From Romeriopsis navalis LEGE 11480 (GTDB lineage: Bacteria; Cyanobacteriota; Cyanobacteriia; Leptolyngbyales; Leptolyngbyaceae), in contig NZ_JADEXQ010000022.1 in assembly GCF_015207035.1 (NCBI RefSeq), positions 1 to 61,953 of the forward strand: 61,953 nt of DNA. The letters are read 5' to 3'. Of the stretch, positions 1 through 54,910 are shown one piece after another (the first letter of the stretch is position 1; each line of letters starts with the position of its first letter). Under the pieces are notes generated by a model. That model saw only the letters and a list, made by a program, of their open reading frames with translations. It was not told the DNA's origin and ran no database searches. Both the position numbers and the translations under genes were made by a program.

Positions 1-2
1 GC

Positions 3-770
3 TTCTACTGTTGGTTCGGTATGATCCCCGCAGCATTGGCGGTTTCGCAAGATCAACTAGAGACGATTAATCAGCAGTGGAAAGGTAGTGCCCATGCCTT
101 GAACGATGTGAATTGTGCAAGCTGCCATAAAGATAAAAAGACCAAAGCCTTAGTGAATAATCTTGGCCCCGAGAGCTGTAAGTCCTGTCATGAGGGTGAG
201 GTTGATACGTTCTTATTGGGTAAGCATGGCATTCGCCTGCTGGAAAAACAAAGTCCCCTCACCCCAGACCGTGCCCGCATCCCCATGCAAGCCGATGCCC
301 ATAGCAAGTCGATGAACTGTAATGCTTGCCACAATGTCCATTCCGTTAAAACGGTGCCCGCAGCGGTGGATTCCTGCCTGACCTGTCATAGCGATCAGCA
401 TTCCTTGAACTATGAGAAATCAAAACATGCCCAATTATTTCAAGCTAAGGCCGCGCGCCTCCCCCGCCCCGATCAGGCTTCTGTAACCTGCGCGACTTGT
501 CATTTGCCGCGTTCACTGATGGATGAAGATGATGAGGATTCGGTATTCGTCAATCACAACAACACGTATACGCTTTTGCCACGCGATCGCATGGTCAGAG
601 ACGTCTGCATGAACTGTCACGGGATGGAATATTCCTACAACAACATCTTTGATGACGAGAATGTCGAAGCCAATTTTGATCATGCTTCTACCCAGGACTT
701 GAAAACGTTGGAAATGATGCGAACGGCAGAGAAAGTCCGGGGTGTAAAGCGGCGGCGTTCATCGGATTAG
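3..770 (+). CDS. Hexahaem periplasmic cytochrome c (5' end outside window)
   Basis: Predicted periplasmic or lumenal electron carrier. Counting from the ATG at 21, six CxxCH haem c sites begin near residues 32, 53, 100, 119, 157 and 196, with extra His residues that could be distal ligands. The frame stays open to the left edge, and the residues before the ATG are hydrophobic and lead into an AxA-like site. The true start and most of the signal peptide therefore probably lie outside the window. The C-terminus is basic and not membrane-spanning. It heads a same-strand series with a monohaem lipoprotein, a b-type membrane protein, haem c maturation genes and a Rieske protein, so a role in quinol-linked electron transfer is likely. 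The subfamily (cytochrome c3-like, c554-like or other multihaem) cannot be settled by eye. The six haem sites are certain; the role is inferred. Confidence 0.85.
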   Translation, partial: FYCWFGMIPAALAVSQDQLETINQQWKGSAHALNDVNCASCHKDKKTKALVNNLGPESCKSCHEGEVDTFLLGKHGIRLLEKQSPLTPDRARIPMQADAHSKSMNCNACHNVHSVKTVPAAVDSCLTCHSDQHSLNYEKSKHAQLFQAKAARLPRPDQASVTCATCHLPRSLMDEDDEDSVFVNHNNTYTLLPRDRMVRDVCMNCHGMEYSYNNIFDDENVEANFDHASTQDLKTLEMMRTAEKVRGVKRRRSSD

Positions 771-885
771 GAGGTGAAATTTCCCAGCGAAACAAGGTCA
801 GCGACTCAGGCCGCATCGTCTGAGTGATTGGATGCCCGACTATTTTATGTTTGGCCGTGTCAGTGAAATTAATTGCTTAACCGAA

Positions 886-891
886 GAGGAG
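886..891 (+). promoter_or_regulatory. Ribosome binding site setting the start of the DUF3365 lipoprotein
   Basis: GAGGAG lies 8 nt before the ATG at 900. The frame could also begin at 873, but the codons there are not preceded by such a site, so 900 is preferred. Confidence 0.6.
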
Positions 892-899
892 AACCGAGC

Positions 900-1574
900 A
901 TGTCAGCAATTTATCAGTGGTGGCGCAGTCTGCGTCTCAAGTTTGTATCGACGTTGGCGTTAGCGTTGGCGATTTGTTTTACGGTAGTTGCCTGTGGTGG
1001 CGGTGCAAGTACGAGTAGCAGTGGTGGCGGTGGTGGGACGACTGTTGCCGGGATCTCTCCGGAAGTGGTAGTCGACTATATCCATAAGGTCGCAGAATCC
1101 GATCGCACAGCCTATACCAAGCACGTGATTGGTCGCCTGACAAAACTGGAAGGGAAGGATAACAAGAAGGGGGTTGTGACCGCTGAGGCCACAGAATTCT
1201 GGAAGCAGGAGAAAGGCGTGCCCTTACCGGCACAGATGTTCCGTATGGGTGCAGAACTCGCTTCCGAAGATGGTAACTTCACCATTGGTCTAATTTCACC
1301 TTGGAACATCAACGATAACCAAGCGCCCAAAGATGATTTCGAGAAAGCTGGTATGGCGAAAGTGGTCGAGACGGCTGAGCCGTACAAAGCCGCTCGCGAA
1401 ATTGCCGGGAAGAAGTACTACTCGGCGATCTATCCCGATATCGCGGTGGCTGATGCTTGTGTCAGTTGCCATAACGATCATCCAGTGCATAAAGAGCGCC
1501 ACGCCGACAAAGTCTTTAAGAAAGGCGATGTCATGGGTGGAGTAGTGATCAACCTGCCGCTGAAGGGTGCTTAA
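900..1574 (+). CDS. Monohaem c-type lipoprotein with Tll0287-like (DUF3365) domain
   Basis: Predicted lipid-anchored haem c protein facing the periplasm or lumen. From the ATG at 900 there is a basic N-terminus, a hydrophobic core and a lipobox ending VVAC with Cys32. A Ser/Gly-rich linker follows, then a domain of about 165 residues that resembles the Tll0287-like/DUF3365 family. One CxxCH (C187, C190, H191) supplies the haem site in the family's usual C-terminal position. Family members are thought to sense redox state or ligands through haem, either alone or fused to kinases and cyclases; here the domain is free-standing. It sits 130 nt after the hexahaem cytochrome and 50 nt before the b-type membrane protein. 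It could be a small electron shuttle instead of a sensor. Confidence 0.8.
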   Translation: MSAIYQWWRSLRLKFVSTLALALAICFTVVACGGGASTSSSGGGGGTTVAGISPEVVVDYIHKVAESDRTAYTKHVIGRLTKLEGKDNKKGVVTAEATEFWKQEKGVPLPAQMFRMGAELASEDGNFTIGLISPWNINDNQAPKDDFEKAGMAKVVETAEPYKAAREIAGKKYYSAIYPDIAVADACVSCHNDHPVHKERHADKVFKKGDVMGGVVINLPLKGA

Positions 1575-1623
1575 TTCGCTTGCTTCAGCACGATCGTTCG
1601 TTAACTCAAGGTGAACTTGAACC

Positions 1624-2244
1624 ATGCAACCGAGTTTCAAAACGCTCATTATTTTGACCCTAATATCGGTTGCACTACTTGCACCGTTTGCGTTTAGTGC
1701 CTCCTATTTTCCGCTGCTGCGCGATCAGGCGTTTGATTTCCACGAATTCTTACGTGGAGATCTGTACAAGCAGGTGACAGGCTATATTTCCCTGGCATTT
1801 GTCTTGGTGGAAATGGTGCTGACTCTGCGCAAACGGGGCCGACGGCTACGCCCAGTGAAGGTGTCGGTGCCCGGCACCGTGAAGTTTTGGCGGCGACTGC
1901 ATGTATTTTTTGGGGTTGTGCTGTTAGGCGTGATCCTGATTCATACGGGTGGCGCGGTAGGGCAAAACTTTAATGGCATCTTCCTCTGGGTCTTTTTCGG
2001 CGTGACGCTTTCCGCATTGGTCGGCGTCGTTGCCGAAACCGGGGTGCTGGAGTCTGCACAACAGCGATTTAGTCTGGTGCCGATTGGGAGTGACGGTGCA
2101 TTTTCGAAAGCGTTGACGGGAATTCCGAAAAGTAAGCTGATTCAGGGGATGCGAGGTCTGTGGCTATCCACCCATATTCTGTTCGTCAGTGCCTTTTTTA
2201 TCCTGTTGGGATTCCATATTTTCCTGGTTTACAACTTCCAATAA
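1624..2244 (+). CDS. Integral membrane protein, putative dihaem b-type cytochrome
   Basis: A 206-residue protein with about five hydrophobic helices (near 5-25, 50-68, 91-110, 117-137 and 180-203). His93 and His107 fall on one helix and His184 and His198 on another. Both pairs are 14 residues apart, the arrangement that holds two stacked b haems in cytochrome b/b6. The protein is shorter than cytochrome b and has no quinone-site PEWY or PDW motif that I can see, so it may belong to another bis-His cytochrome family. Its place between two c-type cytochromes and the Ccs genes, with a Rieske gene downstream, suggests it passes electrons between the quinone pool and the periplasmic cytochromes. 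The His pattern is seen; haem binding and quinone reaction are inferred. Confidence 0.6.
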   Translation: MQPSFKTLIILTLISVALLAPFAFSASYFPLLRDQAFDFHEFLRGDLYKQVTGYISLAFVLVEMVLTLRKRGRRLRPVKVSVPGTVKFWRRLHVFFGVVLLGVILIHTGGAVGQNFNGIFLWVFFGVTLSALVGVVAETGVLESAQQRFSLVPIGSDGAFSKALTGIPKSKLIQGMRGLWLSTHILFVSAFFILLGFHIFLVYNFQ

Positions 2245-2289
2245 GCGCGCTCGATTTGCACCCGATGCCATCGAGATACTCAGTTTAGT

Positions 2290-2802
2290 GTGATTCATAT
2301 GCTCAGCCCGGTCCATATGCTTAGCCCGATCCCCATCCGATATCCCGGATTGCGCCTGCGTCAGGTGTTATACCGCAGCCTGGCGATATTGACGATCGGG
2401 CTGTGCGTCAGTCTTGGCTTATTTGGGTATACGCCACCGGCCCAGGCGAGCGGCGTGCAAGGTCTGATGGCTTTGAAACATTTGGCCAAAGAATCCGTGG
2501 CCTATGATGTCGCGATTGCCAATGGCAACCCAACGCTGATTGAGTTTTACGCCGACTGGTGTACAAGCTGTCAGTCGATGGCCCCAACGATGGCGCATTT
2601 GCATGAAAAATATGGTGATTCCGTCAACTTTGTCATGTTGGATATTGATGATCCCCAGTGGGCTGAACCCGTTGCCCAGTTCGCGGTGCAGGGGGTGCCA
2701 CAGTTAACGCTATTAACGGCGGACGCGACACCGGTTGACACATTGGTGGGCAAGGTGCCGGAGTCGATCGTGACGCAACTTCTAGAACTTGTGAGGGCTT
2801 AG
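2290..2802 (+). CDS. Membrane-anchored thioredoxin-like protein (TxlA/HCF164-like)
   Basis: Predicted periplasmic or lumenal thiol-disulfide protein. After an N-terminal anchor (about residues 26-46) comes a thioredoxin fold with the active site WCTSC (C91, C94) and a cis-Pro loop GVPQ. This active site and the length match the cyanobacterial TxlA/chloroplast HCF164 group, which keeps apocytochrome c cysteines reduced for system II haem attachment. It lies directly before ccsB with a gap of about 6 nt, consistent with that role. The start is uncertain: a GTG at 2290 and ATGs at 2299 and 2317 are all possible, because an 18-nt tandem repeat at the 5' end duplicates one of the ATGs. Confidence 0.8.
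   Translation: MIHMLSPVHMLSPIPIRYPGLRLRQVLYRSLAILTIGLCVSLGLFGYTPPAQASGVQGLMALKHLAKESVAYDVAIANGNPTLIEFYADWCTSCQSMAPTMAHLHEKYGDSVNFVMLDIDDPQWAEPVAQFAVQGVPQLTLLTADATPVDTLVGKVPESIVTQLLELVRA
2296..2331 (+). repeat. 18-nt imperfect tandem repeat at the thioredoxin start
   Basis: Two 18-nt units (2296-2313 and 2314-2331) differ at two positions. Each begins CATATG and encodes HMLSP followed by V or I. The duplication places two in-frame ATG codons next to one another. Confidence 0.75.
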
Positions 2803-2808
2803 ATTTTG

Positions 2809-4614
2809 GTGAAATTTTTGCGGTTTTTAGGCTCAATTAAACTCGCCGTGCCAGTGCTACTGACGATCGCTGTGATCTTGGTATGGGCCACCTTCCATGA
2901 AAGCGCTGTCGGTTCGCCGACGATTCAGCGTGAGGTTTATAAGAGTGTCTGGTTTGGGGCTTTGATGTTTTTGCTGAGTGTGAATCTCAGTGCTTCAGCA
3001 CTGTTGCGTTATCCCTGGCGCGGGGCAAGGAAAATTGGCTTTGCCCTGACCCATTTTGGGTTAGTGGTGTTGATCGCTGGTTCCGCTGCGGTGATTCATG
3101 TCAGTACCGAAGGCATGATGACGGTCCGGATTGGCGGTGGTGCGAATAATATGATTCGGGTTGAAGGCGATTTGCTGGAAGTTGCAACGGCCGATGGTGC
3201 CGTCCAGCAAGCGGAAGTATTTATTCAACCCGATGGAACGCCAGTCCCGAGTCAGGTCGGTGATCTGAAAATTTTGGGCTATAGTCCCAATACGATTAAA
3301 ACAGTGAGTTTTATGGCTGGTGGCCCAGTGGCCAATCCGGCCGTCCAGCTACAGTTCACGAGCGATCGCATGGGCCAGACGGTCGATCGCTGGTTAGCGG
3401 CGGCACCGGCGGCCTATAGCGCAGTTGAGATGGGGCCAGCGGAATTAGAAATCCTCCAAGCCAAAGATGATGCCCAGCTTGAGAAGCTCCTGCAAGCACC
3501 GGCGGATAACGCCTCGCAATTGCTGGGGACGCTGAAGCTAACGACCCCAAAAGGGAACCAATCGATCGATGTGACTCAGGTCAGTGAGCAATCCGTCCGC
3601 GCTGGTGATCTAGATATCCGTGTGCTCAATACTTGGAATGACTTCCGCATCAATTCCGAGCAGCAGCCGGTGAATGGCTCGGACCAACCGCGTAATCCTG
3701 CTGTGCAGTTAGCGATTACCCAAGGTGAGCAAACCGAAGAATGGTTTGTCTTTGCGCGGGATGAATTTGAGCCGATTCGGACGACGGCGACTGAAAGCCC
3801 GATTGATCTGAAGTTGGACTATGCGTTCTCGCCGCCTGTTTCTGTTGATGGTTTCCGGGTAATTGTGGGGCCAGATAGCCAGCTATTCTACGCCGCACGC
3901 TCTTCTAAGAGTTTCAAGTCCGGTGCTTGGACTGTAGGCGAATCCGTCAATCCTGGCTGGGCTGATTTCCAAATCAAACTTGCCAGCTTTATTCCCCAAG
4001 CGACCCTCCAGCGTCAGGTGGTGCCGGTTGAGGCAGCCGGTGAAGATGCCTTCCCAGCGTTGCATGTGGCTACGGCGGATGGGGCGGACCAATGGCTGTC
4101 TTGGGGCGACCCGACGGAAATTTCGACCCCAGTGGGTGAGGTGTTTGCCGCCTACAGTCCGCGCTCTTTAGAACTGCCCTTTGCGGTGAATCTATCCGAC
4201 TTTATCGTTGAGCGGAATGAAGGGAGTGAATCGGTGGCGATGTGGACAAGCCAACTCAAGCTCCAATCACCCGACTCAAACGAAGTTGTGGAACGCAATG
4301 TTTGGATGAATAATCCGACTTGGTTCCACGGCTGGAAACTGGCCCAGGCCTCTTGGAATCCGGGTGATTTGCAGCAGTCGACTTTGCAGCTCAAACGTGA
4401 GCCGGGGTGGATTACTGCCTTGACCTGGACGGGTTCGGTGCTGGTGGTCGGCGGGATTGCCACGATGTTCTACGGCGGTACGGTGTTGAAAAAGTTGCGG
4501 CGATTGATCCCCACTTTGCCGAAATCGCCGACTGTCAATCCTGCGGCGACGGCTGTGGCCGAATCGGCAGCGGCGATCGTCACCGATTCCAGCTCCGAGC
4601 TCCCTGTTTCTTGA
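2809..4614 (+). CDS. ccsB: Cytochrome c biogenesis protein CcsB/ResB, long form
   Basis: Predicted membrane partner of CcsA in system II cytochrome c maturation, which moves haem out and attaches it to CxxCH. The first 30 residues carry the ResB-type SIKLAVP helix. Further helices lie near 45-65 and 75-100, then a large soluble region of about 400 residues, a ResB-like block with NPGDLQQ shortly before the end, and a last helix near 540-560. At about 600 residues it is clearly longer than typical cyanobacterial CcsB as I recall it (roughly 450). Start: a GTG at 2809 is preferred over the TTG immediately before it. It follows the thioredoxin by 6 nt and precedes ccsA, so the three genes form a maturation unit, probably for the haem proteins of this cluster. 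Confidence 0.85.
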   Translation: MKFLRFLGSIKLAVPVLLTIAVILVWATFHESAVGSPTIQREVYKSVWFGALMFLLSVNLSASALLRYPWRGARKIGFALTHFGLVVLIAGSAAVIHVSTEGMMTVRIGGGANNMIRVEGDLLEVATADGAVQQAEVFIQPDGTPVPSQVGDLKILGYSPNTIKTVSFMAGGPVANPAVQLQFTSDRMGQTVDRWLAAAPAAYSAVEMGPAELEILQAKDDAQLEKLLQAPADNASQLLGTLKLTTPKGNQSIDVTQVSEQSVRAGDLDIRVLNTWNDFRINSEQQPVNGSDQPRNPAVQLAITQGEQTEEWFVFARDEFEPIRTTATESPIDLKLDYAFSPPVSVDGFRVIVGPDSQLFYAARSSKSFKSGAWTVGESVNPGWADFQIKLASFIPQATLQRQVVPVEAAGEDAFPALHVATADGADQWLSWGDPTEISTPVGEVFAAYSPRSLELPFAVNLSDFIVERNEGSESVAMWTSQLKLQSPDSNEVVERNVWMNNPTWFHGWKLAQASWNPGDLQQSTLQLKREPGWITALTWTGSVLVVGGIATMFYGGTVLKKLRRLIPTLPKSPTVNPAATAVAESAAAIVTDSSSELPVS

Positions 4615-4647
4615 TTGTCACTTGTTTTCCTGATTGCTGAACTTCTT

Positions 4648-6384
4648 ATGAAACTGCTGAAATTTCTCATTGGCCTTTGTCTGGGCGCATTGATGATCGT
4701 GCTCCCAGTCAGTCAATTCCAAACCTCTCCCCTGGAGCCGTTGCAGACCTTAGCGGTGCAGCTCGATGGGCGCAAAAAGCCATTGGATACCGTGGCCCTT
4801 GAAACCGTCTCAAAAATCCACGGGAGTGCGAGTTATAAGCAAGCTGACGGTAGCAAGCTCGACTATCTGAAGACTTATCTATCGCTGTCGTTTAACGATC
4901 GGGATTGGAACCAAGAGCCGTTTATTCTGTTTACCTATCGGCCCTTGAAGGAGCGGGCGGGGCTGGATGCGGAGCAGAAGTACTTTAGTTTTCAGACGTT
5001 GCTCAAGTCCCAAGGCTTAGCGGATGTGGTGGCTACTGCCCACGATAAGCAGGTGAACGATCAAGACTTGAGCCGCGATGAGCGAGAAGCCCTGACGATC
5101 GAAGAACGGGTGGAAGCCATGCTGCAAACGGTGGGTCAAGATGACTTGCCGATCGTGCCGCATCCGACGGAGAAAAAGGGCAAATGGTTGAGTTTGGCCA
5201 CCGCAAACCAGTCCTACAGCGAGGACCAAATTGCGCCCCTCGCCGCCCAACATCAGACCTTAGTGCAAACCTATGACGCGGCAAATCCGGACCTCACACC
5301 CGTGGTGCAAGCGGCAACGGCATTGCATGACGGCTTAGCGCAACTCAGTCCGACGATTTATCCCGCGATGGTTGATCTGCAGCGGGAAGTGCATTTCCAC
5401 CACTTCCATGCGTTTGCGAAGGCTTGGATGATTTATGCGGTGGCGTTTGTGGCGATGTTGCTGACGCTGTGGTTGAAGTCGTTTGATTTGTATTGGGGCG
5501 CGATCGGGATATTCTGTGCGGGCATCGCGGTGAATAGCTACGGCTTCTTACTGCGGATGCAGGTGGCCGGGCGACCCCCGGTGACGAATATGTACGAATC
5601 GGTTGTCTGGGTGGGTTTTGGTATTGCCGCATTAGCACTGTTGTTTGAGCTAACTTCGCGGGCGCGTTACTTCCTATTGGCGGCGGCCCCCCTGTCAGTG
5701 TTGAGTTTGGTGATGGCCGATCGCTTACCGGCGGTGCTGGATTCCAGCATTGCGCCGCTGGTGCCGGTGTTGCGCGATAACTTTTGGTTGAGTATTCATG
5801 TTCCGACGATTACGCTGAGTTACGCGAGTTTTGCTTTGGCCTTGGGTTTAGGCCATGTTGCTTTGGGGTATACCCTATGGGCCCCCAATCAGACGAAACG
5901 GGTGCAGGCACTTTCACAACTCACCTATCGTGTGATTCAAGTCGGTGTGCTGCTGCTGACGACGGGGATTATTCTTGGGGGCGTCTGGGCGCATGTCTCC
6001 TGGGGCCGCTTCTGGGGCTGGGATCCCAAGGAAACCTGGGCGTTAATTGCCCTGCTGTGTTATCTGATTCCGCTCCATGGCCGCTTAGTCGGTTGGATTG
6101 GTAACTTTGGGATTAATGTTGCGAGTATTGTGGCGTTTAATGCGGTGTTGATGGCTTGGTATGGCGTAAACTTTGTACTGGGTACGGGCCTCCATAGCTA
6201 CGGTTTTACGACAGGTGGCTCAGAGCTGACGATCGTGACCGTTGTTGGGATCGATCTTCTGTTCGTGTCCGTGGCCTCGCTACGCTACATGCGGTCCCGC
6301 TCAAAGCCAGCCACAGTTGGCCTCGAAGCGGTGGCGAAGGCGGCCACGATGACCATTTCAGATGATGTGTTGGAAGTGGGATAG
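4648..6384 (+). CDS. ccsA: Cytochrome c biogenesis protein CcsA/ResC, long form
   Basis: Predicted haem-handling membrane subunit of system II cytochrome c maturation. The C-terminal half has about eight helices and the tryptophan-rich haem motif (WGRFWGWDPKETW, from residue 452), with conserved His residues before and after it. The N-terminal half has one helix followed by about 230 soluble residues containing GRKKPLDT, a feature I associate with the extended CcsA of Bacteroidetes, Planctomycetes and deltaproteobacteria and not with the ~350-residue cyanobacterial form. The ATG at 4648 follows the upstream TTG-initiated reading and starts a good signal-anchor. The extended size suggests a second, specialised copy, perhaps gained by transfer. 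Genome context is needed to know whether a standard copy also exists. Confidence 0.88.
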   Translation: MKLLKFLIGLCLGALMIVLPVSQFQTSPLEPLQTLAVQLDGRKKPLDTVALETVSKIHGSASYKQADGSKLDYLKTYLSLSFNDRDWNQEPFILFTYRPLKERAGLDAEQKYFSFQTLLKSQGLADVVATAHDKQVNDQDLSRDEREALTIEERVEAMLQTVGQDDLPIVPHPTEKKGKWLSLATANQSYSEDQIAPLAAQHQTLVQTYDAANPDLTPVVQAATALHDGLAQLSPTIYPAMVDLQREVHFHHFHAFAKAWMIYAVAFVAMLLTLWLKSFDLYWGAIGIFCAGIAVNSYGFLLRMQVAGRPPVTNMYESVVWVGFGIAALALLFELTSRARYFLLAAAPLSVLSLVMADRLPAVLDSSIAPLVPVLRDNFWLSIHVPTITLSYASFALALGLGHVALGYTLWAPNQTKRVQALSQLTYRVIQVGVLLLTTGIILGGVWAHVSWGRFWGWDPKETWALIALLCYLIPLHGRLVGWIGNFGINVASIVAFNAVLMAWYGVNFVLGTGLHSYGFTTGGSELTIVTVVGIDLLFVSVASLRYMRSRSKPATVGLEAVAKAATMTISDDVLEVG

Positions 6385-6452
6385 CCAACCCGTTAGCGGG
6401 ATCTTTTCCCGCACCCAAATTCCCCAAAATCGATCTTTTAGGAGCTTGTGTA

Positions 6453-6938
6453 ATGGAACGACGCGAATTTATGTCTTGGGCGGGTACGGGCTTTATTGCC
6501 GCCTCTTTGCCAATGGCGATCGCCGCTTGTAGTTCTTCCACAACCGAGAAGCCGGATGCGGCAACCAGTACATCACCGGAGCCAAAAGCGGATGCGAAAC
6601 CCGATGCGGCTCCAGCGGCGAAAGCCGATGCCGATGGCTTTATCCCAGTGGGCACTGTGGCGGATCTCGATAAAGCCGGTTTCCTGTCGGACAAAAAGTT
6701 TGCTGGTGGGCCGTTAATTGTGGTGCGTGACCCCCAGGATAAGGCCACGGTCTTAGCGCTCAATTCGACTTGTACGCACGAAGCCTGTGCTGTGCGCTGG
6801 CGATCGGAGAAGTTTGCCTGTGCTTGTCATGGTTCGTCCTTTGCCCCGGATGGAGCCGTGGAGGCAGGCCCAGCCGAAAAGCCGTTGGCCAAGTTCACGG
6901 CAAAAATTGCGGGCGATCAAGTGTTGGTCAAGGCTTAG
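6453..6938 (+). CDS. Rieske [2Fe-2S] protein, Tat-type lipoprotein
   Basis: Predicted lipid-anchored electron-transfer protein. The N-terminus has a twin arginine (RREFM), a hydrophobic stretch and a lipobox with Cys26. A 35-residue Ala/Lys/Asp/Pro linker follows. The Rieske ligands are C107 and H109 in CTHEAC and C123 and H126 in CACHGS, with C112 and C125 placed for the disulfide typical of high-potential Rieske proteins. Tat export suits a cofactor inserted before transport. Unlike PetC, there is no N-terminal transmembrane helix beyond the lipoprotein leader. It ends the redox cluster, 68 nt after ccsA, with an AGGAG about 10 nt before the ATG. Its likely partner is the b-type protein at 1624. 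Confidence 0.88.
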   Translation: MERREFMSWAGTGFIAASLPMAIAACSSSTTEKPDAATSTSPEPKADAKPDAAPAAKADADGFIPVGTVADLDKAGFLSDKKFAGGPLIVVRDPQDKATVLALNSTCTHEACAVRWRSEKFACACHGSSFAPDGAVEAGPAEKPLAKFTAKIAGDQVLVKA

Positions 6939-6968: not shown

Positions 6969-7898
6969 ATGAGTCAACTCACCCCGGAAGAAGTTGTGGC
7001 CCTGCTCAAGCTGGGTCGATCGTTGCATGATGCCGAATTGAGCAATATCAATTTAGTCGGTATGGGGATCGACCATGCCGATTTCACGGGGGCATATTTG
7101 CGATCGGCGAAGCTCCAGAATGCCTCCTGCCTCAAGGCGGACTTTACCGGGGCGACGATGATTTTGGCGGACTTATCCGGTGCCGTTTTGGAGCAGGCGG
7201 TGCTGGTGGGGACAACTTTAATTAATGCCAAATTTAATCAAGCAAATTTGCGATTTGTGAATGGTCGTAAAGCCAAGCTGTATCACACGTGTTTTGATGC
7301 GGTGGATGCGACATCGGCTAACTTTAGCTATGCGGATTTCCAAGAAGCAACGGGTAAGCAGGCCAAGTTTATTGAGGCGAATCTGAGTCACTGCCAGTTC
7401 AATGAAGGGGACTTTAGTGGGGCTTGCTTTGATGATGCCAAACTTCAGTCAAGCCAGTGGTATGGCGCGAGTCTTGCCGCTGCGAGTTTGATCGGCACGA
7501 ATTTAGAGCAGTCGCAGTTGGTTAAGACCAAGCTCATGGGGACGAATCTGTCCCAAGCCGATTTGATCGCGGCGAATCTGGCCGATGCGGATTTGAGTGG
7601 GGCAGTGCTCGATCGAGCAGAATGTGTTGAAACTGAACTACCCCGCGTCAATCTATCCAGGGCCAGACTTCGCAATACTTCGTTTTATTCTGCCGAAATG
7701 GAAGCGGCGGATTTTTCGGGTGCTGAATTAGTTGGTGTTAACTTCGTCCAGGCGAATTTGGAAAATACGATATGGGAGGGGGCGACAATCGATCCCTCCA
7801 CTCGCTTTGCGGGCGCGATCCTAACGAAAGCCAAGGGCTTTACCGATGAGCAAAAGCATTGGCTGAAACAGCAGGGGGCACTGAATGTGCCCAGTTAG
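6969..7898 (+). CDS. Pentapeptide-repeat protein
   Basis: A 309-residue protein built almost wholly of A(D/N)LXX repeats from about residue 25 to 285. This predicts a right-handed quadrilateral beta-helix. There is no signal peptide and no membrane helix, so it is probably cytoplasmic. A helical N-terminus (about 20 residues) and a short C-terminal tail cap the coil. Cyanobacteria carry many such proteins and few have known functions. It starts 30 nt after the Rieske gene, so it may be co-transcribed with the redox cluster, but nothing in the sequence ties it to that function. Confidence 0.85.
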   Translation: MSQLTPEEVVALLKLGRSLHDAELSNINLVGMGIDHADFTGAYLRSAKLQNASCLKADFTGATMILADLSGAVLEQAVLVGTTLINAKFNQANLRFVNGRKAKLYHTCFDAVDATSANFSYADFQEATGKQAKFIEANLSHCQFNEGDFSGACFDDAKLQSSQWYGASLAAASLIGTNLEQSQLVKTKLMGTNLSQADLIAANLADADLSGAVLDRAECVETELPRVNLSRARLRNTSFYSAEMEAADFSGAELVGVNFVQANLENTIWEGATIDPSTRFAGAILTKAKGFTDEQKHWLKQQGALNVPS

Positions 7899-28246: not shown

Positions 28247-29692
28247 ATGTTTGGAGATTTTCAATCACCACCAATGAAATGGTTATTGCTAACGCAAATC
28301 GGTGGATTTGCCACAGCGGGTGGATTAGTTTGGGCTTTGCAAACTTGGGATCAACAGCTCACGCCTCAGCCTATCGTTGCATCGGTCAACCAGGCGTTTG
28401 CGCAAGTCCGTCCGGCGCAAATTGCCCAATGGGATCAAGCGTCGCTACAGCAGCCTCAACAGCCTCCCATGCTGCTTGAAGCCGATAGTCGTATCGGGCC
28501 TGACCAAATTCAAGGACCGTTGTCGGCGTCTGAGCAGGCGATGGCCCAGCGGGCTTGGCGTTACTTTGATGCAAATTGGCAGGAATCGACAGGGCTGGTG
28601 AATCGTGTTGATCGGATAGCCGTCACGAGTCTGCACGATATGGCAACAAGTTTAGCCGCCTTGGTTAGTGCGCGGGAGTTGGCGCTAATTAGCGATCGTA
28701 TATTTCAACATAAGCTAAAACGCCTATTACAAACCTTGGCCACGTTGCCGCTGTATAACGGCGAATTACCCCATCGCCTCTACCATACGCAAACGGCGTT
28801 GCCGCTCGCGAAACACCCGCGCACGGGACAATCCTCAACCGGCTGGTCGGCGATCGATATTGGTCGGTTAGCGCGCTGGTTAAAAATTGTTGGTGCCCGC
28901 TATCCTCAATTTAAACCCCAGACCGAAGCAATTTGGCAACGCTGGCAAGTGAGCTTGCTGACGCGCAACGGCCAACTGATGGCAAGTCAAATTCGTCATG
29001 GTCGTGAACAGCTTTATCAGCAGGGGCGCCTTGGCTATGAAACCTATGCAGCCTATGGATTGCGGCTATGGGGATTGCCGGTTGATGTGGCGCTGCAACC
29101 GCAAAAATATATGACGATTAGTCATGTATATGGCCAACCGGTCCCGACCGATCGTCGCCGGCGCAATTTTGATAATGATGTCAGCGTAAATAGTGATCCC
29201 TATATTTTAGATGGGATTGAAACCGGTTTTCAGGCATTGCCTCGGAGCTTGGCTGAAGCGGTGTTACGCGCGCAGATGGCCCGGTTTGAAAAAACGCAAC
29301 AACTGACGGCTGTTGCCACGGATGCGATTGATCGTGCGCCATTTCGCTTGACGAATACGGTGATTGCCGATCAAAAACCTTGGTCAACCTATGCGGGGTC
29401 ACAGCAATACGCTGACTTTCGGTTTCTGAGTACGAAAGCTGCAGTGGGTTGGTATGTGTTGTATCCCAATCATTACACGCGGCGTTTAGTTGAGTTTGTA
29501 CAGTCGGAACTTGGGGGCGAACAGGGTTGGCAAAGCGGCTTTTACGAAACCTTGCGTCAACCGAATCAGGCATTGAGTGCGGATACCAATGGGGTGATTT
29601 TAGCGAGTTTGCTCTATCGCAAGGTTGATCAGCCGTTGATGGATTGGGCCGGGATTCGCCCCGTAACGCAGCCAACTTCAGATGGCAGTTAA
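28247..29692 (+). CDS. DUF3131 protein, first copy
   Basis: A 481-residue protein starting 19 nt after the barrel gene with a GGAG site before the ATG. A membrane anchor lies near residues 10-32. The rest is a DUF3131 domain: AQRAWRYFDANW with TGLVNRVDR, later GWSAIDIGRLARWL, GRLGYETYAAYGLRLWG, and FRFLSTKAAVGWYVLYP. Such domains are mostly alpha-helical and resemble alpha/alpha barrels of glycan-active enzymes; they are found beside polysaccharide synthases. The activity is not known. Two further copies follow in the same operon. Confidence 0.85.
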   Translation: MFGDFQSPPMKWLLLTQIGGFATAGGLVWALQTWDQQLTPQPIVASVNQAFAQVRPAQIAQWDQASLQQPQQPPMLLEADSRIGPDQIQGPLSASEQAMAQRAWRYFDANWQESTGLVNRVDRIAVTSLHDMATSLAALVSARELALISDRIFQHKLKRLLQTLATLPLYNGELPHRLYHTQTALPLAKHPRTGQSSTGWSAIDIGRLARWLKIVGARYPQFKPQTEAIWQRWQVSLLTRNGQLMASQIRHGREQLYQQGRLGYETYAAYGLRLWGLPVDVALQPQKYMTISHVYGQPVPTDRRRRNFDNDVSVNSDPYILDGIETGFQALPRSLAEAVLRAQMARFEKTQQLTAVATDAIDRAPFRLTNTVIADQKPWSTYAGSQQYADFRFLSTKAAVGWYVLYPNHYTRRLVEFVQSELGGEQGWQSGFYETLRQPNQALSADTNGVILASLLYRKVDQPLMDWAGIRPVTQPTSDGS

Positions 29693-29760
29693 TGCAGGCT
29701 ACGAAATTTCAACGGAATGTTCAATGCAACAAAATCGTCAACGCTTTTCACTACATAATT

Positions 29761-32169
29761 ATGAACGTTTTTTTGAGTTATCTAAATCGCCTACTCCCAT
29801 CAACGATTCTTGGGATCGTTGGACTTTTTTCAACAACTGTGATGCTGAATGATCATCTTGCGCGTGCTAATGAACCCCCAACCATCGCCGAAAATCGAGC
29901 CAGCTGCCCGATCAACCAACAAGCACTGACTGCTCAGGAGCGGCAGTATGCGCAGGTGGCTTGGCAGTATTTTCGCGATAATATGCAGCCTCAGACAGGG
30001 CTAGTGAATTCGGTCGAACGTTACCCTTCGACTTCCCTGTGGGATATGGGTAATAGTTTAATGGCGTTGCATGCGGCACGATCACTCAATCTGATTGATC
30101 AAGCCGATTTTGACTATCGGTTGAACCAGTTTTTGCAAACCTTGGGGACATTACCCCTTGTTGATCGCACCTTGCCGAATAAAGCCTATAACACGGCCAC
30201 AGCCAAGATGGTGGATTACGAAAATCAGCCGTCACGTCACGGCATCGGTTGGTCAGCGATTGATATTGGTCGCTTATTGGCGGCATTGCATATCGTACAA
30301 GATTGTCATCCCCGCTACCAGGATTGGATTCGGGGCGTTGTGTCTAAGTGGCAACTACAACGGGCGATCGATCAAGGGCAGTTAATTGGTGCAATCCGTA
30401 CGACTCAACGACGGCAGCTGGTTCAGGAAGGACGTTTGGGCTATGAAGAATATGCCGCTTTAGGGTTTGATTTGTGGGGTTTCACGGCACCTAAAGCCCT
30501 CGATCGTCGGGCTTTTCGGAAGTTTGTCGAGATTTACGGCATCCAAATTCCGGTTGATCAGCGGACCTATGCCACGACGAATGCCAGTAACTATGTAGTG
30601 AGTGAATCTTATATTCTGCAACGGTTGGAGTTTGGTGGCGATCCAGAATTTGCAGCAACGGCGGCGAAAATTTTGGCAGTGCAGCAACGACGATATGAAA
30701 AAACTGGCATTTTGACCGCTTTATCCGAGGATCACGTCAAGGGAAAACCACATTTTCTCTACAACACGATCTATGCGAACGGCATTTCTTGGGCCACGAT
30801 TACAGAAGATAATCAGGCCTATGCCAAACTTCGAAGTCTGAGTACGAAAGCTGCCTTTGGTTGGCATTATCTCTATCCGGATAATGACTATGCCCAACGG
30901 CTCTTTGATGTCGCGAAGACGCTAAAACCGGCAACGGCGGCCGGGTTTTATGCCGGCCAATTTGAACGTAATCAAATGCCGAATCAAGTCCTGACGGCGA
31001 ATACGAATGGCTTAATCTTGGAATGTCTGCTCTATAAGGCGCAAGGCTATCAGCCATTAACCCGATCGGCCCAACGTTCCGGTCGTGCGTCATCGACTGC
31101 TGCGACAACTGTGATGCCTGTGGTGAATCACTCAGCGGCGACATCAGCATTGCCTGAAAAGACAGGTTCTGTCACCGCATCCAGCTCCAGCGATCATCCG
31201 CCATCCCGCTTGGTCAACGCTGGGGAGACGCGGCATTCGGTAAAACCCCCGGTACTGTTAGGTGCCTATAGCCAGCGTTATTTGGGTGAACAAGCGGCAA
31301 TTGATCAAGATTTGCATGGAATCAGTCAATGGGCGGGAAAACGTTTATCCTTAGCCGGTTTATTTTTTGATTTAGAAGATGAGAATCCGTCCTATAACAT
31401 TCCGCGTCAGCTAGAAAAGCTGCATCAGAATGGGTTGACGGCATTTTTGAATTTCTCCGCCCGGCACCCTGCGGCAAAACTGGCAAATGGCGATCTCGAT
31501 CGGCAAATTCAGCAGATTGCCCAAGCTTTTGCGACCTGGGCAAAACAGGGTGGTCAGCGGATGGCATTTCTGGCTCCCTTACCGGAGATGAATGGTGCCT
31601 GGGAACCCTACGGCGAAGATCCGGCCAACTTTAAACGGGCATATCAGCGGATTCAACGAATTTTCACCGAGGCGGGTGTGCCCTCCAGTGCAGTCCGATG
31701 GACCTTCGCGCCGAATGGCTGGAGCCCGACCCAACAGCATAAATTTGAGCATTACTATCCAGGGGATGCGGCTGTCGATGTCGTCGCCTTCAGTGGCTAT
31801 AACTGGGGTCACTGTCAGTATCAAAGCTGGAAACAGTGGGATTCTCCCGATGCGGTGTTTGGTCCTTATTTGCAACGCTTACGGGTAATGGCTCCGGATA
31901 AACTGATCGTGATTGCTCAAACGGCCAGCACCAGCACAACCTCCCAGGGTGAAAACGCGGCCCAAAAAGATCAATGGCTGCGGGATAGCTATCGTTATTT
32001 AGCCGCATCACCAGCGGTCCAAGGCATTTTATATTTCAACTTGCAGAAGGAATGTGATTGGCCAATTTATACTCCGAAGGGACCTAATAGTCAGGGGTTT
32101 AAAGATGCCGTAGCCCATGATGCGTTTGCTTATCGGCCGCCGGGTCAGCTACGCGATGCGGGATTCTAG
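29761..32169 (+). CDS. DUF3131 protein fused to a GH26-like domain
   Basis: A 802-residue exported protein. A signal-anchor covers about 8-38, the DUF3131 domain about 60-425, then a Ser/Thr/Ala linker, and a GH26-like TIM barrel from about 500 to the end. The barrel keeps the acid/base Glu609 in PEMNGAW, but the place where GH26 enzymes carry the nucleophile Glu reads IAQTAS with Gln720. It may be a glycan-binding or altered enzyme that trims or holds the polymer. The ATG at 29761 is preferred: the frame is open from 29644 but that would overlap the previous gene and put 39 polar residues before the leader. Confidence 0.82.
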   Translation: MNVFLSYLNRLLPSTILGIVGLFSTTVMLNDHLARANEPPTIAENRASCPINQQALTAQERQYAQVAWQYFRDNMQPQTGLVNSVERYPSTSLWDMGNSLMALHAARSLNLIDQADFDYRLNQFLQTLGTLPLVDRTLPNKAYNTATAKMVDYENQPSRHGIGWSAIDIGRLLAALHIVQDCHPRYQDWIRGVVSKWQLQRAIDQGQLIGAIRTTQRRQLVQEGRLGYEEYAALGFDLWGFTAPKALDRRAFRKFVEIYGIQIPVDQRTYATTNASNYVVSESYILQRLEFGGDPEFAATAAKILAVQQRRYEKTGILTALSEDHVKGKPHFLYNTIYANGISWATITEDNQAYAKLRSLSTKAAFGWHYLYPDNDYAQRLFDVAKTLKPATAAGFYAGQFERNQMPNQVLTANTNGLILECLLYKAQGYQPLTRSAQRSGRASSTAATTVMPVVNHSAATSALPEKTGSVTASSSSDHPPSRLVNAGETRHSVKPPVLLGAYSQRYLGEQAAIDQDLHGISQWAGKRLSLAGLFFDLEDENPSYNIPRQLEKLHQNGLTAFLNFSARHPAAKLANGDLDRQIQQIAQAFATWAKQGGQRMAFLAPLPEMNGAWEPYGEDPANFKRAYQRIQRIFTEAGVPSSAVRWTFAPNGWSPTQQHKFEHYYPGDAAVDVVAFSGYNWGHCQYQSWKQWDSPDAVFGPYLQRLRVMAPDKLIVIAQTASTSTTSQGENAAQKDQWLRDSYRYLAASPAVQGILYFNLQKECDWPIYTPKGPNSQGFKDAVAHDAFAYRPPGQLRDAGF

Positions 32170-32215
32170 TTGACCTAATCGGTAATGCCATTTATTGTTC
32201 CAGTGATTCACCATC

Positions 32216-33490
32216 ATGACACTTCCTCTATTCTTCCTGCTGGCACAAGTTGCCACCCCGTTGCCGCATCATCTGCCGCACCCAGAAGCGTTACCGCAGC
32301 CTTCCCTCGAGCCACCAGCCGGCTATTCGCTGTCACGCTTATCAGTTGCCGATCGTGCCGCCGCGAAAATCGCTTGGAAATATTTTGAGCGTAACTGGGA
32401 TCAACGCACGGGGCTGGTCCATTCCGTCGATCGTTTGCCTTGGACCACTGTCTGGGACCAAGGCAGCGCGCTGTTAGGGATTCATGCGGCACGGCAGTTG
32501 GGCTTGATGACTGCCGATCGTTTCCAACAACGAATTACCACCACCTTAGGGACATTGGAAACACTGCCATTGCCACCTAGTGGTTTACCCCATAAGGCCT
32601 ATGATACCCAAACGGTCAGGATGCTGGATTTGGATATGCGCCCTGATCCCACCGGAAGTAGTGGCTACTCGGCGCTAGATGTGGCGCGATTATTAGGTGC
32701 GTTGCACATATTGCGGACCCATTATCCGATGCTGAAACCGCAAATCGAACGGATTGTCGCGCGCTGGAATCTGGAACAACTAGTGCAAGATGGCCAGCTC
32801 TACGGTCTCAGCCGAGATCGCCGGGGGCGTTTACAGCGAGTTCAAGAGGGGCGCTCTGGCTATGAACAATATGCCGCGTATATGCTACAACTCTGGGATC
32901 TCGATGCGGCCAAAGCCTTGCGTAATCCGGCGGTAGATTGGATTGAAATCGAAGGTGATATGCTCGAAGTTGACCAACGTAATTTGACGAATTCTGGTGC
33001 GAGTAACTATCTCACGAGTGATCCCTATTTACTCTTGGCGATGGAAGTTGGTTTGCCGCAGTCATTGCAGCCGCAGGTGGATACCTTATTAGGAGTGCAG
33101 GAAAAGCGATTTCAGCGCACGCAAATTTTAACCGCAGTGAACGAAGACTCCCTCGATCGATTTCCTTATTTCCTGTATTACAACGTCTATGCCAATGACC
33201 AAATTTGGCAGCCAATCACCGCTCAGGGCAAGGCCTATCCGCATCTGCGGTTTCTCAGCACAAAAGCGGCTTTTGCTTGGCATGCCTTAAAGCCGCAGCA
33301 TCCCTATACGCAGCGATTACGTCAGGCCGTCCAACCACTTGGCGATGCGCATCGTGGCTACTATTCGGGTCGCTATGAAAATGCCCGCTATGGTAATAAC
33401 GTGGCGGTGAACGTGAATACGAATGCGATTATTTTGGAGAGTCTGTTGTATCGCTTGCATCAGGGAAAACCACTGGCTCAACCGCGCTAA
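32216..33490 (+). CDS. DUF3131 protein, third copy
   Basis: A 424-residue DUF3131 protein, with AKIAWKYFERNW, TGLVHSVDRLPWTT, GYSALDVARLLGAL, GRSGYEQYAAYMLQLWD and LRFLSTKAAFAWHALKP. The N-terminus is a short hydrophobic leader, shorter than in the other two copies, so export is possible but less clear. It lies 46 nt after the GH26 fusion and 60 nt before the glycosyltransferase. The three copies have drifted apart, so the duplications are old and each may have its own role. Confidence 0.85.
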   Translation: MTLPLFFLLAQVATPLPHHLPHPEALPQPSLEPPAGYSLSRLSVADRAAAKIAWKYFERNWDQRTGLVHSVDRLPWTTVWDQGSALLGIHAARQLGLMTADRFQQRITTTLGTLETLPLPPSGLPHKAYDTQTVRMLDLDMRPDPTGSSGYSALDVARLLGALHILRTHYPMLKPQIERIVARWNLEQLVQDGQLYGLSRDRRGRLQRVQEGRSGYEQYAAYMLQLWDLDAAKALRNPAVDWIEIEGDMLEVDQRNLTNSGASNYLTSDPYLLLAMEVGLPQSLQPQVDTLLGVQEKRFQRTQILTAVNEDSLDRFPYFLYYNVYANDQIWQPITAQGKAYPHLRFLSTKAAFAWHALKPQHPYTQRLRQAVQPLGDAHRGYYSGRYENARYGNNVAVNVNTNAIILESLLYRLHQGKPLAQPR

Positions 33491-33550: not shown

Positions 33551-35575
33551 ATGACTTCTATTCTGTTACATTCACCGACCTCATTTTCGGGAAATCATCA
33601 ATCAAGGTTGAAACGTAATACACTGTTATTTCGATATTTTGCCGAAATTAATCTTGTTCTTGGTGTGTGGTATCTGCACTGGCGGATTTTCCACTCTTTG
33701 AATTTTCAGGCTTTGTGGCTGGCTGTGCCCTTGCTGATTGCTGAGGTTTATAGCTACTTTAGCGGCCTCTTATTTGTGATTGGTCTATGGCGACCGATCG
33801 AACGCCAAACTCAGTCCCTCGATGCCTTGATGCCAAGTTTGCCGCTGGCGGATTATCCGACGATCGATGTGTTTGTGACTTGCTATAACGAACCGCTCGA
33901 AATCATTGAACAGACAACCCGGGCGGCACTCAAACTGCGCTACCCGATCGATAAATTGCGCGTCTATGTATTGGATGACGGTAATTCCGTCGCTGTTCAA
34001 GATTTGGTCCACCGCATCAATCGTGAGTTAAAGCAATCACGATCGATGCAGAATTGGAAACAGCGCTTACTCAAAAAACTCACTGACGACAAGATGCAGC
34101 TACACCAGCTTGAATCGCTGGCTGATGATTTACCCCCGATCGAGGAACTATTGGCCCAAGCCCCCGTTGGTCCTCAGGCCCAGCCCGCATCGACGTTGAT
34201 CTATGTGATTGAGCAATTATTAAAAGCATCGAGTCAATCGGAGCAGACGCTTTCAGCGCAGTTACAACGTCAAAAGCAACAGCTAATTGAGTCGATTGCC
34301 CAAACTGAACAGGCTTTGCAGAATATGCAGCGCTGTCGCTATATTGCCCGACCAAAACCGCGCGATCGGGCCCACCATGCGAAAGCGGGCAATATTAACT
34401 ACGCGTTGTTCTGTGGTGATACTGATGGTGAATTTATTATCACCTTAGATGCTGACCATGTTCTCAAAGCGCAATTTCTCCAGCGTGTGCTGCCGTACTT
34501 TTTTACCTTTAACCTGGAGTTTGGTAAATATATCAGCAATCGTGTGGCCTTTGTTCAAACGCCGCAGGATTTTCATAATTTGCCAGCGGACGATCCCTTT
34601 GGACATGGGGCACATTTATTCTATGGGCCAATTCAGCAGGGTAAAGATGGCTTAAATGCCGCCTTCTATACGGGCACAAATGCGATTCTGCGGCGAGAAG
34701 CGCTCATGAGTGTGGGGATTAAAAAGTTTTCGCGGAAACTGCGCCGTAACCATGAATACTTAGAAGAATTTGAACTGATTGGGGCCTTAGCGACAAATAG
34801 TATTACGGAAGATATGAATACGGCCATGCATCTCCATGCGAATGGGTGGCAATCGGTCTATCATCATGAGCTTTTGGCCGAAGGTCTTGCGCCGGATGAT
34901 TTGGGTGCGACCCTCAAGCAGCGGCTGCGTTGGGCCCAGGGGACGATTCAGGTATTGCTGCGGGATAATCCACTGACTTTAAAAGGGCTAACGCTGTGGC
35001 AGCGCTTGCAATATTTTCAGACAATGTACAGTTATTTTTCTGGCTTTGCTACGTTGGTGTATTTGATTGCGCCTTTGGTTTACTTCTTTGCCGGAACCTC
35101 GGCAGTTGAGGTGGCGGGTGCGAGTTTTGCGCTACACTTCTTGCCGGTTTTTCTGTGCAATCGGGTGACGTTTTTAATTGCTGCGTGGGGAATTCCACTG
35201 CGGGAGATTTGGCGGGCTGAACAATATGCGATCGCCCTATTCCCTGTGTTTATCCAAGCGGTATTAAGTGTGATTACGGGGCAGTCGCTATCGTTCCAAG
35301 TGACGCCGAAGCAGCGTCAGTCAGGTGTATATGTCAAATTAGTGATTCCCCAATTGGTGATTTTCTGTCTGACCTTGGGCGGCATCCTGTGGAGTGGTTA
35401 TCGCTTTACCCAGGGACAACTAGCAAATCCTTGGGTCTATGGCATTAACAGCTTGTGGGGATTTTATAACGTGTGTGTTCTGTGGTCGATTTTGCGGGCT
35501 GCGATATGGCAACCGCCAACTCCGCCACCGAAGCCTTCTACCAAGGTGGCATCCCGCTCCTTAACCCGCGTTTAG
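33551..35575 (+). CDS. Cellulose-synthase-like glycosyltransferase (GT2) with coiled-coil insert
   Basis: Predicted processive inner-membrane polysaccharide synthase. Two helices near 35-85 precede the GT2 domain, with Asp142/Asp143 (LDDGNS), a DAD motif at 300-302, TED at 419-421 and QRLRW at 457-461, all the residues of a processive enzyme. Four or more helices follow (about 490-640). Between the first Asp and the DAD motif is an insert of about 90 residues rich in Gln, Leu and Lys that looks like coiled coil; BcsA has no such insert. No PilZ domain is present, so c-di-GMP control, if any, must come through another protein. The sugar cannot be told. It is probably the synthase for the operon's polymer. 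Confidence 0.85.
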   Translation: MTSILLHSPTSFSGNHQSRLKRNTLLFRYFAEINLVLGVWYLHWRIFHSLNFQALWLAVPLLIAEVYSYFSGLLFVIGLWRPIERQTQSLDALMPSLPLADYPTIDVFVTCYNEPLEIIEQTTRAALKLRYPIDKLRVYVLDDGNSVAVQDLVHRINRELKQSRSMQNWKQRLLKKLTDDKMQLHQLESLADDLPPIEELLAQAPVGPQAQPASTLIYVIEQLLKASSQSEQTLSAQLQRQKQQLIESIAQTEQALQNMQRCRYIARPKPRDRAHHAKAGNINYALFCGDTDGEFIITLDADHVLKAQFLQRVLPYFFTFNLEFGKYISNRVAFVQTPQDFHNLPADDPFGHGAHLFYGPIQQGKDGLNAAFYTGTNAILRREALMSVGIKKFSRKLRRNHEYLEEFELIGALATNSITEDMNTAMHLHANGWQSVYHHELLAEGLAPDDLGATLKQRLRWAQGTIQVLLRDNPLTLKGLTLWQRLQYFQTMYSYFSGFATLVYLIAPLVYFFAGTSAVEVAGASFALHFLPVFLCNRVTFLIAAWGIPLREIWRAEQYAIALFPVFIQAVLSVITGQSLSFQVTPKQRQSGVYVKLVIPQLVIFCLTLGGILWSGYRFTQGQLANPWVYGINSLWGFYNVCVLWSILRAAIWQPPTPPPKPSTKVASRSLTRV

Positions 35576-53310: not shown

Positions 53311-53424
53311 GGGGAATGGGATGAGATACAGTTCAAAGTCTGAGTTGAGTGAGACTCAACTATCTTGAAATTGCATCAACAAGAAAACACAGGGGGTCAT
53401 CGTGCATAATTTGTACCAACCAAC

Positions 53425-53450
53425 CTTGGCTGAGAGGGTGCTCAGCCAAG
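53425..53450. other. Stem-loop between chaperone and usher
   Basis: A perfect 10-bp stem (cttggctgag with its complement) and 6-nt loop, 50 nt after the chaperone stop on the minus strand. No U tract follows, so it may be a processing or attenuation site that lowers usher expression. A second small palindrome lies at 53343-53361. Confidence 0.5.
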
Positions 53451-53499
53451 TATCAGAAATTGCCGTCGCGGAATCGATTTGTCGTTTTTGCTTAGCCCA

Positions 53500-54276: not shown

Positions 54277-54298
54277 AGCGCTAATTGCAATGAAGAGT

Positions 54299-54769: not shown

Positions 54770-54823
54770 TCATACCACCTCCACCAGCGTGCCTGCCGAT
54801 CGTGTTAATTGTCCAAGGCTGAA

Positions 54824-54884: not shown

Positions 54885-54910
54885 TGTATCCTAAGTTCGC
54901 TCAGTTTAAT

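Follow-up and report, generated by a model that had tools for sequence, protein, structure and literature searches.

A conserved cyanobacterial gene set for a putative transmembrane b/c-haem relay, with globin partners and an extra cytochrome c synthase

Introduction

Several described systems each resemble one part of the gene set analysed here, which lies at one end of a 61,953-nucleotide contig of the cyanobacterium Romeriopsis navalis LEGE 11480 (NZ_JADEXQ010000022.1; the entire contig is hereafter called the window) and combines multihaem cytochromes c, a haem lipoprotein, a membrane protein with four conserved His and cytochrome c maturation genes. The MtrA/DmsE decahaem cytochromes of MtrCAB and DmsEF are comparable in forming a haem chain that is potentially bis-His throughout, whereas the present module has 11 haems, split between two proteins in cyanobacteria, with one CX4CH motif and an N-terminal membrane helix. 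NirB-type flavoproteins share a flavin adenine dinucleotide (FAD) plus BFD [2Fe-2S] part with the non-cyanobacterial version of the module, but the two fusions scanned have a four-His membrane domain instead of a sirohaem domain, and the cyanobacterial locus has no FAD part. Flavohaemoglobins and single-domain F-family globins are the nearest solved relatives of the module globins, with which they share PF00042 and a Tyr/Gln/His pocket; unlike them, the module chains have one to five domains, often a hydrophobic tail, and no reductase domain attached. SyNOS of Synechococcus PCC 7335, a globin-fused nitric oxide (NO) synthase, is another cyanobacterial globin tied to NO metabolism, but it is a fusion enzyme, and the abstract describing it mentions no multihaem relay (PMC6104048).

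The haem lipoprotein passes the Pfam cut-off of the sCache_heme family (PF11845, DUF3365, Tll0287-like) and has the CXXCH motif and the stand-alone lipoprotein form, but it departs from the Tll0287 subtype by a Pro in place of the conserved Cys. As to maturation, special System II lyases of Wolinella are reported to serve unusual haem motifs (PMC12285233). Like NrfI and CcsA1 described there, the present lyase is an extra System II copy linked to an unusual multihaem cytochrome, but here the unusual motif is CX4CH and the specificity of the lyase is putative. The identity of the reductases that act on globins in cells is an acknowledged open question: with a means of re-reduction, every haemoglobin could act as an NO scavenger, and it is the cognate reductases that have to be found (PMC2323109). 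The component families of the module are thus each known, and it is their combination with a globin partner that is unusual. A literature search, with most subscription papers outside its reach, found no prior account of this combination.

Results

Checked by a listing of open reading frames (ORFs), by sequence, and against Pfam and NCBIfam, the gene calls bore out an earlier sequence-only reading of the window, which had described seven genes on one strand: a hexahaem cytochrome c (hexaC), a mono-haem DUF3365 lipoprotein, a four-His membrane protein (cytb), a thioredoxin, CcsB, CcsA and a Rieske lipoprotein, in that order (Table 1). The window opens inside hexaC, which thus has no start. The same reading had advised looking upstream for further subunits, and two were found off the window. 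When the protein encoded upstream in a relative was used as query, the R. navalis genome gave a match at the extreme end of contig C108, which encodes a membrane-anchored pentahaem cytochrome (pentaC) with an N-terminal hydrophobic stretch, four CXXCH motifs and one CX4CH motif. It is preceded by a 315-residue two-domain globin, and all three PF00042 globin matches of the genome lie on C108. Judging from the gene order in relatives, this end of C108 is probably adjacent to the start of the window (contig C22), the two contigs being unjoined by sequence.

Among 386 cyanobacterial genomes, hexaC was found in 4 and cytb in 6. A scan of genome contigs with the single cytb sequence revealed no relatives. 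A profile scan of GTDB contigs, from which the best 80 of 87 relatives were kept, yielded 79 loci; by record title, 52 were cyanobacterial, 11 were non-cyanobacterial core loci and 16 were weak. The cyanobacterial loci come from Symploca, Acaryochloris, Leptolyngbya, Moorena, Roseofilum, Xenococcus, Prochloron and others, and the order is globin, pentaC, hexaC, DUF3365, cytb, thioredoxin, with ccsB, ccsA and Rieske nearby on either strand where the contig extends that far and the genes were found. Counted as ORFs in 53 cyanobacterial hexaC loci, many on contigs that end early and including two pairs that look like the same contigs and count twice (L010/L044 and L011/L060), pentaC was present in 52, DUF3365 in 52, globin in 49, cytb in 48, thioredoxin in 38, ccsB in 34, ccsA in 30, Rieske in 26 and a ChaN gene in 12. 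The pentaC and hexaC reading frames overlap by 4 nt in 46/52 loci. The earlier proposal had been made to depend on the order being conserved somewhere, and as a matter of fact the order is kept across genera and phyla. Because, in addition, the four His of cytb are invariant and the hexaC His are 98-100% conserved, the module is more than a chance arrangement. A conserved module with an extra haem lyase is well supported.

Some loci appear reduced or extended. In two of the six genomes with cytb (G054 and G211), the locus is devoid of c haems and globin and encodes thioredoxin, CcsA, ChaN and a complete or partial cytb. Loci L013 and L014 show apparent decay: cytb, thioredoxin, CcsA and ChaN are still there, the multihaem, DUF3365 and globin genes are absent, and the cytb of L014 is only a fragment with a stop. 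A gene for a ChaN-family haem-binding lipoprotein adjoins the module in L012, L021, L031 and others, and also these two remnants. A small hydrophobic protein (~72 aa) encoded right after the thioredoxin gene is conserved in 17/69 clustered loci, and the one scanned had no Pfam match. A plasmid-borne element and a defence system were considered and rejected, as one hexaC, from Moorena, matched none of 72,556 plasmid records and PADLOC gave no match for 5 proteins.

The 11 core loci span planctomycetes, gammaproteobacteria, acidobacteria and Gemmatimonadetes, and belong to Rhodopirellula relatives, a Pirellulaceae bacterium, Hahella, Thermoanaerobaculia and Gemmatimonadetes. In all 11, pentaC and hexaC are one protein with ten CXXCH motifs and one CX4CH. 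Upstream of its gene, tblastn detected in 11/11 loci a homologue of a fusion (FAD-BFD-cytb) in which cytb makes up the C-terminal end of a chain of ~680 residues; in the two such proteins scanned, Pfam assigned Pyr_redox_2, Rubredoxin_C and BFD [2Fe-2S] domains. A third such protein, from L077, scored 358 bits with the NirB model TIGR02374, below the cut-off of 578. Neither the Rieske protein of the window (tblastn, E 1e-5) nor the module CcsA and CcsB had a match in the 11 core loci. A globin gene follows in 5/5 planctomycete loci. A search of 4 module genomes for a module-specific FAD partner encoded elsewhere in cyanobacteria was negative: the strongest match, an 868-aa protein of G000, has counterparts in two genomes without the module, the match in G170 covers a shorter range (34%, residues 27-353), and G360 and G213 gave weak matches only.

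The 11-haem unit looks, from its conserved His, like an electron wire rather than a catalyst. In 65 hexaC homologues, the six haem His and six further His are conserved at 98-100%. An alignment of fused proteins only (9 of the 11) has eleven second His for eleven haems, and both sets line up with the split proteins in an alignment of 50 sequences (9 fused proteins, the window hexaC, 20 of 53 other hexaC and 20 of 52 pentaC). The window hexaC aligns to the C-terminal half of the fused proteins. Each c haem can therefore be bis-His, which favours electron transfer over an active site. A role as substitute for sirohaem nitrite reductase is unlikely, given that NIR_SIR (nitrite/sulfite reductase) genes occur in 10/11 module genomes searched and that every c haem has a second His. 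The pentahaem ActA of alternative complex III was a weak match of the 11-haem profile (6btm_A, 1.3e-4); neither NrfD-like nor Mo/Fe-S subunits occurred among the families recurring in at least 5 of 69 loci, the genomes themselves lying outside that search. The AlphaFold2 model of the 11-haem protein (pLDDT 60.8) was too weak for structure comparison.

In cytb, H93, H107, H184 and H198 are invariant in 50 aligned sequences, namely the window protein, 44 of 49 cyanobacterial ORFs and 5 non-cyanobacterial C-terminal parts. Its AlphaFold2 model is helical (pLDDT 87), with the His pairs on helices 86-108 and 169-204; cytochrome b carries its haem-ligand His pairs on helices B and D. Pfam returned a weak DUF4405 match (21.5 bits, below the cut-off of 26.7) and no family name implying haem b.

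A lipobox-like site was present in 57/59 DUF3365 homologues. In a remote alignment, the VCxxV-type motif of five Tll0287-type proteins reads LPAQM in the module protein, and the position of its Cys is Pro in the 10 module sequences shown. This Cys, the only other one shared by Tll0287-type relatives, is taken to be the axial ligand. No further Cys occurs past residue 60 in 58/59 homologues, the exception being residue 62 of L068, probably its lipobox. Met113 and His62 are candidate haem ligands, being invariant in 23 sequences (the window and 20 of 59 collected ORFs, plus two re-framed by hand). A sequence search of the PDB gave no relative, and 5b82 was not among the matches.

The claim that the module has its own maturation genes was supported, the ResB and Cytochrom_C_asm domains both scoring higher than their Pfam cut-offs. 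CcsA is present in 2 copies in 6/6 cytb-bearing genomes (in G211, cytb is only fragmentary) and in 1 copy in 6/6 genomes lacking cytb, these being the first six of 380 without a match. An extra ResB match beside the canonical one was seen in 5/6 cytb genomes. The module CcsA aligns over residues 31-534 (26%) with a 1215-residue CcsBA-type frame that lies away from the locus in Rhodopirellula baltica, and over 297-531 only (31%) with the canonical CcsA of its own genome. The longer alignment indicates that the module lyase has this longer architecture in common with the R. baltica frame. The Hahella genome, in which the module is present, has Cytochrom_C_asm matches and no ResB match, hence the module cytochrome does not strictly need System II. 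The CX4CH motif of pentaC is a candidate reason for the extra CcsBA. The thioredoxin, with WCxxC in 42/43 homologues, is the probable reductant of apocytochrome thiols. The Rieske motif C.H..C...C.CH.S, comprising the ligand boxes and the disulfide Cys, was found in 26/28 homologues and in the window protein itself.

A profile made from 7 single-domain globins collected 61 ORFs, of which 32 have one domain, 23 two, 5 three and 1, in a Symploca metagenome-assembled genome, five. Two-domain chains occur for instance in Leptolyngbya sp. PCC 7375 (L049) and Xenococcus sp. PCC 7305 (L063). Besides the 23 two-domain ORFs, poly-globin ORFs were noted in L016, L017, L021, L022, L030 and L062. A hydrophobic stretch of the tail-anchor type ends 28/29 multi-domain globins, and 12/32 one-domain ORFs have a hydrophobic tail, one of them spurious (L059). 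A crude test revealed no hydrophobic N-terminus in globin ORFs, and the globin domain begins at most 6 residues from the ORF start in 44/61; the globins are for these reasons predicted to lie on the cytosolic face. Their nearest solved relative is Hell's Gate globin I (3s1i, 4.5e-24). At the positions read as B10, E7 and F8, the residues Tyr27, Gln49 and His81 are conserved at 93, 97 and 100% in 60 globin ORFs. In some loci a second globin gene lies downstream of cytb; its product is divergent and ends in a conserved tail of another kind (Table 1). The spurious ORF of L059 is a shortened second globin read in frame into the Rieske gene, for which gene decay is a more probable explanation than a true fusion.

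Discussion

The reading that we tentatively favour, with somewhat less than even confidence, is that of a conserved transmembrane b/c-haem relay linking a cytosolic redox partner and the periplasmic haem lipoprotein in either direction, probably in connection with NO or O2. Two b haems of cytb would carry electrons across the membrane, and the 11 bis-His c haems would connect them with the lipoprotein, whichever way the flow goes. Outside the cyanobacteria, the path would run from NAD(P)H via FAD, 2Fe-2S, b haems and c haems to the lipoprotein. In cyanobacteria, the globins, many of them tail-anchored, would perhaps hold the cytosolic end, and the relay would keep them reduced or drain them. 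The job would most likely be NO or O2 chemistry at the membrane, with a globin inside and an sCache haem outside. The direction of flow, the substrate and the contact between globin and b haems are what we infer from this arrangement.

Three soft pointers suggest NO or O2: the pocket residues of the globins, the loss of the sCache Cys, and nitrate-assimilation-type genes that adjoin 3/5 planctomycete loci (L066, L072 and L070). As regards the first, only the pocket residues hint at the module globins being NO dioxygenases. As regards the second, an sCache_heme signalling member without the axial Cys bound NO tightly (PMC12889525). The nitrate-type neighbours are an NMT1-type binding protein and NrtB/NrtCD-like matches in L066, homologues of these L066 genes at 73-84% in L072, and NasA-like (partial), NirA-, sulfite-reductase-alpha- and MoaA-type genes in L070. 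On the other side, no nitrogen-oxide family is among the families recurring in at least 5 loci, rarer neighbours not being annotated.

Several observations weigh against the favoured relay. The nitrate ABC-transporter matches of L066 lie just below or below the curated cut-offs. No globin match was found in the other 6/11 core loci, so globin is not part of the universal core, and the di-globin of R. navalis itself is the one multi-domain globin without a hydrophobic tail. The Glu of the flavohaemoglobin proximal triad appears to be Ala in the module globins, by comparison with VHb. The two b haems proposed for cytb are deduced from the conservation of its His: its model gave no Foldseek match at E<0.001, and in the VIA rows bc1 cytochrome b (8q1b, Z 8.6), hydrogenase cytochrome b (8.6), b561 (8.1) and NOX5 (6.8), that is, di-haem cytochromes, rank no higher than unrelated helical bundles (talin, 10.4). 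As to the wire, the 11-haem profile also matches HAO-like 6h5l (1.6e-8), NrfA (9e-8) and chains of octahaem nitrite reductases; the latter also came first in a search with the 11-haem protein of R. baltica by itself (1.5e-6, ~57 residues), so that catalysis at a haem is conceivable. The Rieske protein has no assigned place in the relay. Lastly, stand-alone sCache_heme proteins have been assigned a redox role, and NO release from a stand-alone member stayed fast after its Cys had been changed to Ala (PMC12889525), indicating that Cys loss alone does not make an NO binder.

A narrower proposal is a transmembrane met-globin reductase, in which multi-domain globins tethered to the inner membrane face would be wired via di-haem b to the periplasmic 11-haem chain and the Cys-less sCache haem. 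The turnover of the globins, by dioxygenation of NO or consumption of O2, would thereby be coupled to electron transport in the periplasm or in photosynthesis. We regard it as possible and rather doubtful in this specific form.

Alternatively, the relay might take cytosolic reductant outward to the surface of the cell, where it would serve extracellular electron transfer or the reductive uptake of iron. The best PDB match of the 11-haem profile was 6r2q_A (1.3e-9, over ~45 profile positions), presumably MtrA of MtrCAB, the name in the PDB table not being that of a cytochrome; the best NCBIfam match of hexaC was the DmsE model (48 bits, far below the cut-off of 192), and the FAD/BFD feed of the other phyla would suit such an export. 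Yet no outer-membrane barrel of the MtrB type appeared among families recurring in at least 5 of 69 clustered loci, a search that covered the loci and not the genomes, and the porin of R. baltica is of the alginate-export family, with relatives near 3/5 planctomycete loci, that of R. baltica included. We hold export to be unlikely. One recurring 75-residue family in the clustered loci had no Pfam match.

The sequence-only reading had likened the set to a bc-type complex drawing electrons from plastoquinone. In such a scheme, which would make the set a second option besides cytochrome b6f, plastoquinol would be oxidised at cytb and/or the Rieske lipoprotein and periplasmic cytochromes would receive the electrons. 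That reading stands as far as a real electron-transfer module, the four His and the Rieske ligands are concerned. Indeed the Rieske protein has the bc-type ligand and disulfide Cys pattern and adjoins ccsA in many loci, and the His form two H-x13-H pairs, as in cytochrome b. Quinol is a possible donor, the positive evidence for it being the Rieske gene. However, PEW of the PEWY quinol-oxidation motif was absent from 55/55 cytb homologues, cytb is tied to the FAD/BFD reductase in 11/11 non-cyanobacterial loci, and those loci have no Rieske match near the 11-haem gene. Plastoquinol as donor was thus not upheld, and because PEWY is lacking and a flavoprotein is the partner in other phyla, a bc-like complex is not our leading reading; we place it lower than export. 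A sensing or regulatory module, in which the Tll0287-type haem and the globins would sense NO, O2 or the redox state, with the c haems serving only to set their redox level, seems improbable: PF11845 domains fused to signalling parts do form a sensor family (PMC12889525) and a PAS-domain ORF lies near 5 Moorena-type loci (one a duplicate), but no other signalling family is among those recurring in at least 5 loci, and eleven bis-His haems would exceed the needs of a sensor.

If globins are wired to a c-haem chain, as the narrower proposal would have it, this would be a new kind of respiratory-type complex. The genetic tie of globins to a defined electron-transfer set, in 49/53 cyanobacterial and 5/5 planctomycete loci, makes the globin-reductase question directly testable. 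The module also gives photosynthetic bacteria a multihaem electron-transfer system, may explain the second CcsBA lyase kept by some cyanobacteria, and offers a naturally occurring protein in which a membrane haem-type domain is joined to a FAD/[2Fe-2S] reductase.

Additional features of the window and of related loci

Coordinates are collected in Table 1. Pentapeptide-repeat genes are common in cyanobacteria, and a gene similar to the one that follows the Rieske gene lies near 38/53 cyanobacterial loci.

Table 1. Features of the window and selected features of related loci (L numbers)
Feature	Position	Strand	Remarks
Hexahaem cytochrome c (hexaC)	3..770	+	6 CXXCH; 5' end cut by contig edge; C-terminal half of 11-haem unit
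Mono-haem sCache_heme (DUF3365/Tll0287-like) lipoprotein	900..1574	+	PF11845 59.9 bits, cut-off 24.1; lipobox-like site
cytb, four-His membrane protein, putative di-haem-b type	1624..2244	+	H93, H107, H184, H198 (two H-x13-H pairs)
Thioredoxin	2290..2802	+	PF00085 67 bits; N-terminal hydrophobic stretch; WCTSC
CcsB/ResB, System II cytochrome c synthase subunit, extra copy	2806..4614	+	PF05140 45.8 bits, cut-off 24.6
CcsA, extra copy	4615..6384	+	PF01578 Cytochrom_C_asm 113 bits; large extra N-terminal part; ATG at 4648 likely start
Rieske [2Fe-2S] lipoprotein	6453..6938	+	PF00355 43 bits; CTHEAC...CACHGS; RR-x-F signal; lipobox-like Cys
Pentapeptide-repeat protein, frequent neighbour	6969..7898	+	PF00805 167 bits
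Three DUF3131 proteins in a row	28247-33490		One with GH26-like part
Cellulose-synthase-like glycosyltransferase	33551-35575		After the DUF3131 trio
Exosortase, EpsH family	39526-40413	-	98 bits
Secreted protein near exosortase	42930		DUF4114, 30 bits
Secreted protein near exosortase	44240		Like the preceding one by eye
Chaperone-usher-like set	50476-55420	-	Usher 84 bits; PapD-type chaperone 41 bits
Second divergent globin	L012:8831-9361	-	
Second divergent globin	L025:7066-7608		
Second divergent globin	L041:4132-4659		
Second divergent globin	L045:4072-4599		
Second divergent globin	L047:12591-13121		
Poly-globin ORF	L016:6753-9107		
Shortened second globin in frame with Rieske gene	L059:2985-3563		Probably decayed
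Small hydrophobic protein (~72 aa)	L049:12764-12982		
Small hydrophobic protein (~72 aa)	L019:12097-12315		
Small hydrophobic protein (~72 aa)	L026:12698-12916		

Further along the window lie the DUF3131 trio with its glycosyltransferase, the exosortase with two secreted proteins nearby, and the chaperone-usher-like set. Small secreted proteins beside the usher set are possible subunits; the single one scanned gave no Pfam match.

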